Shown here one piece after another: positions 9,872 through 15,724 of a stretch of 64,000 bases of DNA (within the stretch, counting starts at the first letter, position 1; the number at the start of each line of letters is the position of its first letter). Below the pieces are notes generated by a model. That model was not told where the DNA came from and ran no database searches. It saw only the letters and a program-made list of their open reading frames with translations. The DNA lies in assembly GCA_000198515.1 (NCBI GenBank), contig FP929140.1:3446527-3510526 (forward strand), read 5' to 3'. Source of the stretch: a gamma proteobacterium HdN1 (GTDB lineage: Bacteria > Pseudomonadota > Gammaproteobacteria > Pseudomonadales > Ketobacteraceae). Both the position numbers and the translations under genes were made by a program.

Positions 9872-9917
9872 CCCTGCGGTTTTGCCTCTCAGTAGTTTTG
9901 TAAAGGAGTCTTATCGA

Positions 9918-11411
9918 ATGTCCGCCCCTTTGCCTAGCGCAACCATTATGGTGCAAGGCACTACTTCCATTATGGTGCAAGGCACCACTTCGGATGCAGG
10001 CAAAACCACCTTGGTGGCAGCGCTTTGTAGAATCTTTCGACGCGAAGGCATGCGTGTTGTTCCCTTCAAACCGCAGAATATGGCGCTTAATAGCGCGGTT
10101 ACAGAAGATGGTGGAGAGATCGGGCGCGCGCAAGCGCTACAGGCGCAAGCGGCAGGCCTCGCTCCAATCATTGATATGAATCCGGTTTTATTAAAGCCCA
10201 GCAGCGATACCGGCGCACAGGTGATCGTACACGGGAAAGCTGTAGGGCAAATGGTGGCCTCACGATACCACGACTATAAAGCGGTCGCGATGCAGGCAGT
10301 GCTAGAGAGCTACCATCGTTTGCAGCAACAGTTTCAGGTGATTGTCGTCGAAGGGGCGGGCAGCCCTGCGGAAATTAACTTACGCGACCGAGATATTGCC
10401 AATATGGGCTTTGCGGAAGCGGTCGATTGTCCGGTGATCTTAATCGCCGACATTGATCGTGGTGGTGTGTTCGCCCATATCGTTGGCACACTTGCGCTGC
10501 TGAGCGAGTCCGAACGCGCCCGCGTAAAGGGCTTTGTGATCAATCGTTTTCGTGGCGATCTACGCCTGCTCCAGTCCGGTTTGGACTGGCTAGAAGCGTA
10601 CACAGGGAAGCCGGTATTGGGCGTGTTGCCCTATCTGCATGGTCTGCATCTTGATGGAGAGGATGGGATTGCAGGTCTGGAAATCGAAAAGCCCGCACCG
10701 AAAAAGCTTACCGTCGTCGTTCCAGTGCTTCCTCGTATTGGCAATCACACCGACTTTGAGCCATTGCGAATGCACCCGCAGGTGGATTTTCACTATGTGC
10801 GAGGTGGTGCAGCAATTCCCCGTGCCGATCTGATCATTTTGCCGGGCAGTAAAAATACCATCGGTGACTTACACTGGCTGCGTGAGCAAGGCTGGGATGT
10901 GCTGATTGAACGGCATCTGCGCTTTGGCGGCAAGCTGATCGGAATTTGCGGCGGCTTTCAAATGCTCGGAAAGCATCTGTACGATCCGCACGAAATTGAA
11001 GGCAAGGTTGCGCACATCGAAGGGCTAGGCGTTCTTGATATCACCACCACCATGCACTCCGAAAAACAGCTTCGCCGCCGCACAGGAACGCTACTTCTCA
11101 GTGGCGCAACCTGCGAAGGCTATGAAATTCACTGCGGCCTGAGTGAAGGCGCGGCGCTGGAAACGCCATTGGTTCGATTCGAAAACGGTGAAGTCGATGG
11201 CGCGCGCACCCCCGACAATCAAGTATTGGCCACCTACCTTCACGGCCTATTCGATCACCCTGAAACCCTCGACGCCCTGTTGCTTTGGGCAGGGCTTGAC
11301 GCCCCCGTAGCGCTGGATTATCGGGCAGAACGCGAACGTCAGATTGACCGTCTCGCCGATAGCGTGGCCAGCCATTTGGATCTTGCCAAGCTACGCAGCT
11401 TTCTAGGTTAG
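9918..11411 (+). CDS. cobQ: Cobyric acid synthase CobQ
   Basis: 497 residues from ATG 9918 with AGGAG 9 bases upstream. It amidates carboxylates of adenosylcobyrinic a,c-diamide using glutamine and ATP. The N-terminal dethiobiotin-synthetase-like ATPase has [10 protein letters not shown] (residues 21-31), [22 protein letters not shown] and DIDRGGVFA. The C-terminal glutamine amidotransferase domain has [10 protein letters not shown] and YLHGLFDHP. Oddity: residues 10-17 and 18-25 are identical (IMVQGTTS twice), a 24-bp tandem duplication of the first strand and the start of the P-loop. ATGs inside each copy (9948, 9972) are alternative starts. No other cobalamin genes and no cobalamin riboswitch were seen. 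Confidence 0.94.
9945..9992 (+). repeat. In-frame 24-bp tandem duplication at the cobQ P-loop
   Basis: Two adjacent 24-base units (9945-9968, 9969-9992) differ at only two positions and encode the same eight residues. The second copy runs into the functional DAGKT of the P-loop; the first is an N-terminal insertion. Confidence 0.9.
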
Positions 11412-11452: not shown

Positions 11453-11815
11453 TCAAGGCATCCAGCGAAACGTTTTGGCGATTTTGCCATCCACCACGGT
11501 TACGCCGTCGGCCCGTAAGAGCGCCATTTGTCGCCTGAATTGCGGAGAATCCTTCGGAAACGTAATTTTGCCTTGGCTATTGATCACCCGAAACCAAGGC
11601 AGTTTCGTATCCTCTGGCAAACGTGCCAGCGTGCTTCCCACTAGGCGCGCATAACCGGGCAATCCCGCCATGCGCGCCACGTCGCCATAGGTCGTGACCT
11701 GGCCTTGCGGAATGGCGCTCAACACCTGCCAGATGCGCTCGGCCATTTCGCGGCTAGATAAGCGTTCACGACCAGGCAAGTGCTCACGACCAGGCAAGTG
11801 CTCACGGCCAAGCAT
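11453..11815 (-). CDS. Alkyltransferase-like DNA repair protein (ATL / YbaZ type)
   Basis: 120 residues from ATG 11815; a shorter start at 11746 (MAERIWQVLSAIPQG) lies where family homology begins. The O6-alkylguanine transferase C-terminal fold is present (PQGQVTTYGDVARMAG, YARLVGSTLARLP), but the active-site PCHR is PWFR, with tryptophan in the cysteine position. Such ATL proteins bind O6-alkylguanine without removing the alkyl group and flag the lesion for nucleotide excision repair. Residues before MAER are built from GREHLP repeats and are probably dispensable. The start lies 4 bases past the SDR stop codon on the same strand, suggesting one transcript. Converges on cobQ. Confidence 0.82.
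   Translation of the reverse strand: MLGREHLPGREHLPGRERLSSREMAERIWQVLSAIPQGQVTTYGDVARMAGLPGYARLVGSTLARLPEDTKLPWFRVINSQGKITFPKDSPQFRRQMALLRADGVTVVDGKIAKTFRWMP
11766..11801 (-). repeat. 18-bp tandem duplication at the 5' end of the ATL gene
   Basis: Two perfect 18-base units (11766-11783, 11784-11801) and a degraded third copy running to about 11819. They encode the repeat GREHLP in the putative N-terminus, next to the end of the SDR gene. Confidence 0.85.
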
Positions 11816-11819
11816 ACGT

Positions 11820-12581
11820 TTAGCGCAGCCCGCCGTCAGTATCAATGCAGCGACCCGTAAAATAGTCGTTCTCAAAAATAAATGTTGCCGCCTGCGCGAT
11901 ATTGCGCGTCTCGCCCAACCTGCGTAGCGGCACGGCTTGCACCAAACGCTCTCGCGCTTCCGGTTTCATTGCGGCAATCATATCCGTGTTGATCGTGCCG
12001 GGTGCGATTGCCCCAGTGCGGATGTTATAACGCGCAAGCTCCTTCGCCCACGTCTCGGCAAGCGTTGCGACACCGGCTTTTGCCGCCGCATAGTTGGTCT
12101 GGCCAAAGCTGCCATAGCGCGCAACGCTGGAAATGTTGATGATCACGCCTTCTTCTACGCCCAGCTCGATCATCTTGATCGCAGCTTCACGACCGCACAA
12201 AAATACCCCAGTCAGATTCACGTCGATAACCGACTGCCATTGCTGCAGGGTCATTTTCTTATCTAGCTTGCCATCTACAAATTTCACCAGCAAACCATCG
12301 CGCGTAATCCCTGCGTTATTGATCAGCCCGTGCAGGCTGCCAAAATCCTGAACGACTCGGCTGAAAAGTTGCTCGACTTCGGCTTCATTTGCAACGTTGA
12401 TGCGATAGGCGCGCGCCTCTACGCCAAGCGCTTCGCACTCTTTTACGGTCGCTTCCATATCTGCGTCGTTTAGGTCGACGACCGCGATCTTGGCGCCCTT
12501 TCCGGCGAGGTAGGTTGCCAAACCACGGCCGATTCCACGACCGGCTCCCGTAACGACGACTACTTTATTATTTAAATCCAT
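11820..12581 (-). CDS. Short-chain dehydrogenase/reductase, FabG-like
   Basis: 253 residues, one classical SDR domain. TGAGRGIG (about residues 11-18) is the NAD(P)-binding glycine motif, NNAG follows near residue 90, and the catalytic Ser-Tyr-Lys set is in ISSVARYGSFGQTNYAAAKAG. The overall pattern is closest to 3-oxoacyl-ACP reductases, but it is far from the fatty-acid genes and the D in VVDLND after strand 2 suggests NAD rather than NADP. Substrate unknown. ATG 12581 has AAGG 8 bases upstream. Probably co-transcribed with the ATL gene. Confidence 0.85.
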   Translation of the reverse strand: MDLNNKVVVVTGAGRGIGRGLATYLAGKGAKIAVVDLNDADMEATVKECEALGVEARAYRINVANEAEVEQLFSRVVQDFGSLHGLINNAGITRDGLLVKFVDGKLDKKMTLQQWQSVIDVNLTGVFLCGREAAIKMIELGVEEGVIINISSVARYGSFGQTNYAAAKAGVATLAETWAKELARYNIRTGAIAPGTINTDMIAAMKPEARERLVQAVPLRRLGETRNIAQAATFIFENDYFTGRCIDTDGGLR

Positions 12582-12820
12582 GATTGCGACCTTTTGATAA
12601 TGATTGAACTTAGCGCGGCCAAAACCTGCGACCTGCGAGTTTTGATTATCCTGAACTCGCGCTCATAGCGCCAGTCTTGCAAGGCGGCAATCATCGTTGA
12701 GGAATTGTGAAAGCTATCAGGATGTCAAATAAGACTTTTTCGTCATTCTGTGGTCTTATCCGATAAGCTTGCCGTGTCCCGTATAATGCTGAAGTCCCCA
12801 CCCGTTTGAGGAGCTATCCC

Positions 12821-13420
12821 ATGTTGTTTCTACGAAATCCATTCTGGACGATTTTTGTCATCGCTTTATTAGAGTCCATCGTTATGGCAAAGATGGGTAG
12901 CAGAATTGGGTGGGGTTTTACGATTGCACTACTGCTGCTTGCCGCAATCGTGGGCTCGCAGCTCGTACGCCAGCAGGGATTTGCGATTCTCGGGCGCTTG
13001 CAAGTTGCGATGGCGAGAGGGGAGAGCCCCAGCCGAGAAATGCTCAATAGCGGCCTGATCATGATGGCTGGAATGCTGCTGATCGTTCCAGGCTTTGTCA
13101 GCGATGCTCTCGCACTATTGCTACTGATCCCTTTTTTCAGGCGCTCCTTAGTGAGCAAAATGGCGGCGCCACTAGATGCTGCCTCCGCAGCCGCCCGCGC
13201 CAATTTCGAAGCCGTATCAGGAGCGGGTTACGGGGCGAATCAAGGGAAATGGGCCTACTACTCGCGCACCACAGATGGGCGGGTGGTGCGCGGCAGTGGC
13301 ACCATCATTGATGGCGAGTTTACCGACCTAGATGTAAGCGCTGGGAGCGACGATCGCGCGGCGGAACCGAAGCGCATCACAGACGAGTCTGCGCACAAGC
13401 AAGTGCCGCCAAGCCAGTAA
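12821..13420 (+). CDS. fxsA: FxsA family inner-membrane protein
   Basis: 199 residues from ATG 12821, directly after GAGGAG. Hydrophobic segments at about residues 5-27, 30-47 and 75-105, with the family pattern LFLRNPFWTIFVIALLES, GWGFTIALLLLAAIVGS and MMAGMLLIVPGFVSDALALLLLIP. E. coli FxsA relieves F-plasmid exclusion of phage T7; its cell role is unclear. The hydrophilic tail beyond residue 115 is longer than in E. coli and predicted cytoplasmic. A consensus TATAAT at 12782-12787 is a likely -10. fxsA just upstream of groESL is a common proteobacterial arrangement. Confidence 0.88.
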   Translation: MLFLRNPFWTIFVIALLESIVMAKMGSRIGWGFTIALLLLAAIVGSQLVRQQGFAILGRLQVAMARGESPSREMLNSGLIMMAGMLLIVPGFVSDALALLLLIPFFRRSLVSKMAAPLDAASAAARANFEAVSGAGYGANQGKWAYYSRTTDGRVVRGSGTIIDGEFTDLDVSAGSDDRAAEPKRITDESAHKQVPPSQ

Positions 13421-13457: not shown

Positions 13458-13485
13458 CTTGAACCCCCGTAAAACGGCCCAATAT
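13458..13485 (+). promoter_or_regulatory. Sigma-32-like heat-shock promoter upstream of groES
   Basis: CTTGAAC (13458-13464), 13 bases, then CCCAATAT (13478-13485). This is close to the RpoH consensus CTTGAAA / CCCCATNT with an allowed spacer. It lies about 35 bases upstream of a separate sigma-70-like promoter. Confidence 0.55.
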
Positions 13486-13519
13486 CGCCAAAGTCGCTGA
13501 TATTAAGCACACACATGGC

Positions 13520-13548
13520 TTGACGTGGCGCGCCGTCTGACTCATATT
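13520..13548 (+). promoter_or_regulatory. Sigma-70 promoter of groES-groEL
   Basis: TTGACG (13520-13525) and CATATT (13543-13548) are separated by exactly 17 bases. The CIRCE operator begins at the last base of the -10, so HrcA bound there would block this promoter. Confidence 0.75.
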
Positions 13549-13574
13549 TGGCACTCTTCAGGGAAGAGTGCCAA
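13548..13574. promoter_or_regulatory. CIRCE operator (HrcA binding site)
   Basis: TTGGCACTC, 9 bases, GAGTGCCAA: a perfect inverted repeat. It differs from the CIRCE consensus (TTAGCACTC-N9-GAGTGCTAA) only by a compensated pair in each arm. The inner bases extend the perfect stem to 12 bp with a 3-base centre. It lies about 144 bases before groES and overlaps the transcription start region. hrcA itself is not in the window. Confidence 0.88.
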
Positions 13575-13717
13575 TTTGGCGAGGCTCGTTGGGATGGCCC
13601 GCAGGGCTCTTTGCCGATCCAGTCGTAGGCAGGGCGTTTGACCCATCAGGCCAGAAAAGGCCAAAAAACTATCCTAAGCGTATTCACACGTAACCCCTAA
13701 TTCAGGAGATGGACTAC

Positions 13718-14008
13718 ATGAAAATTCGTCCTTTGCACGATCGCGTCGTTATTCGCCGTGTAGAAGAAGAAACTAAATCTGCAGGTGGCATCGTTCTTCC
13801 TGGCGCCGCAGCAGAGAAACCCAGCCGTGGTGAAGTTGTAGCCGTAGGCCCAGGCAAAGCGCTCGAAAATGGCGATGTTCGCGCCATGGGCGTAAAAGTG
13901 GGCGATAAAGTGATTTTCGGCCAGTATGCGGGCAGTACCGTCAAGATTGACAGCCAAGAACTGTTGATTATGGCTGAAACCGAAATTTTTGGCGTTCTTG
14001 AAAGCTAA
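13718..14008 (+). CDS. groES: Co-chaperonin GroES
   Basis: 96 residues from ATG 13718 (AGGAGAT 10 bases before); an in-frame ATG three codons earlier is less likely. The protein starts [14 protein letters not shown], has the mobile-loop region [16 protein letters not shown], and ends in the barrel strand segment [13 protein letters not shown]. It forms the heptameric lid of the GroEL folding chamber. First gene of the groES-groEL operon. Confidence 0.98.

Positions 14009-14062: not shown

Positions 14063-15724
<1,662 letters not shown>

Follow-up and report, generated by a model that had tools for sequence, protein, structure and literature searches.

We have described here the promoter region of the chaperonin operon groESL in a stretch of 64,000 nucleotides (the window; contig FP929140.1, positions 3,446,527 to 3,510,526) from the gammaproteobacterium HdN1, whose genome is a single contig of 4,587,455 bases. 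The genes groES (13718..14008, plus strand; Pfam Cpn10, 8.3e-34) and groEL (14075..15724, plus strand; Pfam Cpn60_TCP1, the sole GroEL match in the genome) are preceded by three elements that a preliminary description had placed there and that reading of the sequence confirms. The first is a sigma-32 (RpoH)-like promoter, CTTGAAC-N13-CCCAATAT (13458..13485, plus strand; -35 at 13458-13464, -10 at 13478-13485). The second, about 60 bases away, is a sigma-70-like promoter, TTGACG-N17-CATATT (13520..13548, plus strand; -35 at 13520-13525, -10 at 13543-13548). The third is a controlling inverted repeat of chaperone expression (CIRCE), the predicted operator of the repressor HrcA, with the sequence TTGGCACTC-N9-GAGTGCCAA (13548..13574; strand not applicable), recognised by a genome scan and by its recurrence at groESL in related genomes. 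The most likely start of groES is the ATG at 13718, with AGGAG about nine bases 5’ of it, and the first in-frame ATG at 13709 is disfavoured.

The CIRCE shares its first base with the last base of the sigma-70-like -10 (13548) and differs from the consensus TTAGCACTC-N9-GAGTGCTAA by two symmetric changes. Only about 7e-5 copies of the exact 18-base palindrome are expected from base composition in 4.59 Mb, and the whole genome holds two sites within two mismatches of the consensus.

Probable dual control of groESL

The genome encodes the proteins that these elements would require. There is one hrcA, in the gene order hrcA-grpE-dnaK-dnaJ, whose product combines a winged-helix DNA-binding match with the HrcA C-terminal domain, together with one rpoH above the family cut-off, with sigma regions 2 and 4 present, and one rpoE above its cut-off. 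A search for hrcA and rpoH had been proposed, with absence of hrcA named as refuting dual control; as both genes are present, that refutation falls away. By sequence, groESL thus belongs with the HrcA/CIRCE regulon (a near-consensus operator, with hrcA in the genome) and with the RpoH regulon (a consensus-like promoter that recurs in relatives, with rpoH present).

The sigma-32-like site scores 12/14; when the upstream region is dinucleotide-shuffled, 3 of 1000 versions do as well. It departs from consensus once in each box, the -35 (CTTGAAC) and the -10, and taken alone it would be no more than a moderately strong candidate. It gains weight because a similar site recurs at the groESL loci of relatives. 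Of 19 loci tested, this one included, 18 have a sigma-32-like score equalled by no more than 3 of 300 shuffles, the exception being L100 (38/300); a further locus, L155, was excluded as lying close to a contig end. The relatives’ sites mostly lie about 100 bases 5’ of the CIRCE with a spacer of N13 or N14. The sigma-70-like promoter recurs too, with CTTGAC and TAT blocks at fixed distances 5’ of the CIRCE in a profile of 57 groESL sites. It is conceivable that groESL is under HrcA and CIRCE alone, the sigma-32-like site being a chance match or a relic, and its two departures from consensus and the shuffles that equal it are consistent with this, but we regard it as unlikely given a comparable site in a similar place at 18 of the 19 loci and an rpoH that retains regions 2 and 4. 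Since the whole layout recurs in relatives, groESL is likely controlled by RpoH plus HrcA.

A similar picture is seen more widely, in 80 named groESL loci of which 74 were scored for sigma-32-like sites over a fixed 500-base upstream stretch (six with differing coordinates were excluded). The best score reached at least 12/14 at 19 of 31 loci with a CIRCE and at 32 of 43 without, with shuffle means of 9.6 and 9.8 respectively, and sigma-32-like and CIRCE sites thus widely coexist. The preliminary description had considered HrcA/CIRCE control unusual in gammaproteobacteria, with Pseudomonas and enterobacteria known for RpoH control of groESL. No CIRCE is present at the groESL loci of Pseudomonas and enterobacteria in the named set, so that part stands, but rarity does not hold for the class as a whole: hrcA was detected in 268 of 369 class genomes (a sample that, under the GTDB definition of Gammaproteobacteria, should include the former Betaproteobacteria), and a CIRCE with up to two mismatches is present at 37 of the 80 named loci.

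The two symmetric changes, TTA to TTG mirrored in the other arm, had been taken as a sign of selection for the palindrome. Among the 57 groESL sites this change is present in both arms at five, in the left arm alone at nine and in the right alone at one. The sign of selection thus finds only partial support (Fisher p 0.002 overall), as a one-arm change is evidently often tolerated. All five two-arm cases lie among the relatives’ 20 loci and none among the 37 named loci.

Predicted HrcA operators at rpoH

The relatives set comprises 38 genomes, that of HdN1 included, with hrcA in 21 and undetected in 17. A CIRCE with up to two mismatches precedes groESL in 20 of the 21 hrcA-bearing genomes, HdN1 among them, and precedes rpoH in 19 of the 21, the HdN1 rpoH site having three mismatches. 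One hrcA-bearing genome, G036 (89 percent complete), has neither. These frequencies argue that HrcA typically targets groESL and rpoH in these genomes; of 16 two-mismatch hits that hrcA-bearing genomes have at neither gene, the one inspected, G006:C41, had no heat-shock gene match. In ten hrcA-negative relatives one two-mismatch locus each was inspected, and nine lay without any query gene nearby and one (G016) at rpoH. The HdN1 hrcA itself has no CIRCE of up to four mismatches within the surrounding 9 kb and has a weak sigma-32-like site (score equalled by 36/300 shuffles); at six of 21 loci a sigma-32-like site 5’ of hrcA has a score equalled by no more than 7/300 shuffles.

The rpoH operators have a distinctive context. 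At 21 rpoH loci located through their CIRCE, independently of any promoter and with HdN1 included, the sequence GAAC lies exactly 10 or 11 bases 5’ of the operator in every case, and at 20 of the 21 TCnnA spans the junction of arm and spacer, with two of its bases closing the left arm and the other three opening the spacer. The sigma-E consensus in E. coli is GGAACTT-N16-TCnnA, and both the rpoH elements and their spacing of about 16 bases fit a sigma-E-type promoter into which the operator would be built. The third spacer base is A in 46 of 51 rpoH sites versus 12 of 57 groESL sites (p 1e-13); 30 of the 51 were selected for GAAC and none for the spacer A. A sigma-32-like site with a score equalled by no more than 9/300 shuffles stands farther 5’ of rpoH in eight of 14 family genomes (L109, L145, L146, L148, L149, L112, L111 and L156), which suggests that RpoH also promotes rpoH in those eight; the HdN1 rpoH has no upstream site at that level.

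The GAAC and TCnnA elements could instead serve another sigma factor or regulator. The assignment to sigma-E draws on the E. coli consensus, other extracytoplasmic function (ECF) sigma factors also have GAAC-type -35 boxes, and the HdN1 rpoE lacks such a promoter in a quick pattern look. However, rpoH is a sigma-E target in E. coli and the HdN1 genome has an rpoE above the family cut-off, and we consider a different sigma factor or regulator improbable, if less so than a spurious sigma-32-like site at groESL. An altogether different function for the inverted repeat, stabilisation of the mRNA leader, has some appeal in that the repeat would come first in the predicted leader and that, in other settings, CIRCE has been proposed to act as RNA. 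The relatives’ groESL and rpoH sites, however, accompany hrcA, and the two genes whose promoters they overlap are unrelated; a mainly RNA-level role seems very unlikely.

We searched the 369 class genomes with the strict pattern GAAC-N10/11-TTAGCACTC-N9-GAGTGCTA and found this composite in 87, with no match to the reversed control pattern. Inspection of all 87 sites showed that at 83 rpoH follows in the same orientation no more than 500 bases away and that at two more the RpoH match begins at the operator edge, such that 85 of the 87 precede rpoH. Of the remaining two, one is at groESL and the other, L246 (G109:C8:47854-47894), precedes a gene whose first 398 codons match ClpB best, and which is possibly a further HrcA target. 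By comparison of the lists by eye, hrcA is present in 83 of the 87 composite genomes, and the four without it (G042, G141, G265 and G373) are 62–88 percent complete. Among the 314 high-quality genomes (completeness of 90 percent or more, contamination of 5 percent or less), the same comparison finds hrcA in all 69 that have the composite and in 233 of the full 314 (hypergeometric p 5e-11, uncorrected for ancestry). A relaxed three-mismatch pattern gave 227 of 369 genomes (reversed control 0 among the matches listed) and was dropped as a prevalence count because many of its matches lack GAAC and could stem from CIRCE sites elsewhere, for example at groESL.

In HdN1 there is no strict composite match, and the rpoH operator is degenerate. 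The site, TTAGCACTC-TAATCCGCA-ATCTGCTAA at G000:C1:2394968-2394994, has a perfect left arm but falls short of the full composite in its right arm, where three bases read ATC in place of GAG. The promoter retains GGAAC, the spacing and TCTAA. By its position, spacing and orthology, and despite a mismatch count at chance level, we read this site as a probable decayed operator, and HrcA repression of rpoH in HdN1 would be gone or weak. HrcA could still bind it well enough to repress, as might be argued from the perfect left arm, the retained right-arm TGCTAA, and the rpoH operator of G035, in which two bases are changed at the same position, as could occur if the variation were tolerated. Each base of the altered right-arm GAG is, however, kept in about 96 percent of the 51 rpoH sites, and we think continued repression doubtful, though the strongest of the alternatives considered here.

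Proposed integration of the two systems

These observations suggest the following mechanism. At normal temperature HrcA, held active by free GroEL, would bind the CIRCE and block the overlapping sigma-70-type promoter of groESL, and possibly impede transcription coming from upstream as well. When GroEL is occupied by unfolded proteins, or HrcA is inactivated by heat, repression would drop, and RpoH would independently activate the promoter farther upstream. Across the wider group a second HrcA operator would lie within the sigma-E-type promoter of rpoH, so that HrcA would repress both the chaperonin and its activating sigma factor. In HdN1 the rpoH operator would have decayed, leaving the sigma-E-type promoter, with rpoH uncoupled from HrcA.

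Several points weigh against this scheme or parts of it. In addition to the two consensus departures of the sigma-32-like site and the lack of a sigma-E-type promoter at the HdN1 rpoE in the pattern look described above, sites with three mismatches such as that at rpoH are by count no better than chance, as the reversed pattern also has three matches in the genome. Two relatives, G030 (L119; 96 percent complete) and G016 (L101; 75 percent complete), have a CIRCE-like rpoH site with GAAC 11 bases before it, and no hrcA was found in either; this would be unexpected if the operator served HrcA alone, though hrcA may have been lost recently or the gene missed. Finally, only 69 of the 233 high-quality hrcA-bearing class genomes have the strict composite, so that this form is common in the class without being the norm. 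With these points taken into account, we consider it probable, from the sequence comparisons, that HdN1 has a two-promoter groESL under HrcA and RpoH, and that HrcA acts over rpoH in its relatives through a control that has decayed in HdN1.

We regard a broader version as about evenly balanced, namely that in much of the Gammaproteobacteria HrcA stands above RpoH through a sigma-E-type rpoH promoter that works as a two-input gate, and that the HdN1 lineage broke this gate while keeping HrcA control of groESL and has a perfect CIRCE before a TRIP13-type gene related to anti-phage CBASS operons.

The latter is the other perfect CIRCE of the genome (G000:C1:4232743-4232769; L090 2744-2770), which precedes a lone TRIP13-type AAA gene (PADLOC TRIP13, 441 bits) adjoining a ferritin gene and mobile-element genes. 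The preliminary description had proposed a search for other CIRCE sites with the TTA to TTG arm change, and the change is absent both from this site and from the degenerate rpoH site. Surveys that scored the best few first-look candidates per genome place this TRIP13 in at least two of 369 class genomes (HdN1 and G370) and at least one of 390 order genomes (HdN1). In G370 it heads a PADLOC set of TRIP13-HORMA-HORMA-cyclase-SAVED effector, which looks like a complete cyclic-oligonucleotide-based antiphage signalling system (CBASS), and a two-mismatch CIRCE lies 216 bases 5’ of TRIP13. Plasmid relatives encode a homologue two or three genes 5’ of an annotated CBASS cyclase in the 10 annotated of 12 records, and no CIRCE of up to four mismatches is present in the stretches around these 12, the best of 184 plasmid records with a match. 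The evidence for a CIRCE-TRIP13 association is thin, two cases being too few for a claim.

Within the window, an fxsA-like gene (12806..13420, plus strand; NCBIfam FxsA family membrane protein, 1.4e-28) lies directly 5’ of the groESL promoter region, and by tblastn fxsA adjoins groES in many groESL loci of relatives too. Farther upstream, the open reading frame at 9882-11411 contains IMVQGTTS repeated in frame in tandem, with two copies near the protein start, and that at 11453-11875 has short in-frame tandem repeats with GREHLP-type units, also near the protein start.

Comparison with known systems

Dual control of groESL as proposed here is sound but ordinary, as it is of a kind known from Caulobacter crescentus, in which sigma-32 activates groESL, HrcA represses it through CIRCE, and GroESL keeps HrcA folded (PMC8119881). 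The likeness is that both controls act at one operon, through a sigma-73/sigma-32 promoter and CIRCE/HrcA in C. crescentus as described in the portions of that paper considered; HdN1 differs in having two separate promoter-like sites about 60 bases apart. CIRCE and RpoH control also occur within one genome in rhizobia, where several groESL copies are differently controlled according to the sections of PMC3989490 considered, whereas the single groESL of HdN1 carries both sites. In Campylobacter GroE enhances HrcA binding, as given in the part of PMC8533110 considered. The closest precedent for an operator at rpoH is in Geobacter sulfurreducens, where a consensus CIRCE is predicted 5’ of rpoH as well as of groESL and hrcA-grpE-dnaK-dnaJ (PMC545781, Table 8). 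That organism is a Deltaproteobacterium and no sigma-E-type overlap is mentioned in the parts of the paper considered, whereas in the Gammaproteobacteria here the operator appears fused to a sigma-E-type promoter. The considered sections of PMC10490939 and PMC3135505 contain nothing on rpoH operators. No report of a sigma-E/HrcA rpoH promoter was found in a limited set of open literature (titles and abstract openings), and Permina and Gelfand (2003) may already report gammaproteobacterial rpoH sites. As far as checked, the novelty lies in the placing of HrcA over a sigma-E-type rpoH promoter and in its apparent decay in HdN1.

The proposed arrangement suggests, in a form open to testing, how the two heat-shock systems may be linked in bacteria that have both, with HrcA controlling the gene for RpoH. 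In such wiring the rpoH promoter would read envelope stress as well, and, if the two-input gate holds, full rpoH transcription would need envelope stress (sigma-E) and the loss of free chaperonin (HrcA off) at the same time. The apparent natural decay of the rpoH operator in HdN1 would provide a ready comparison.
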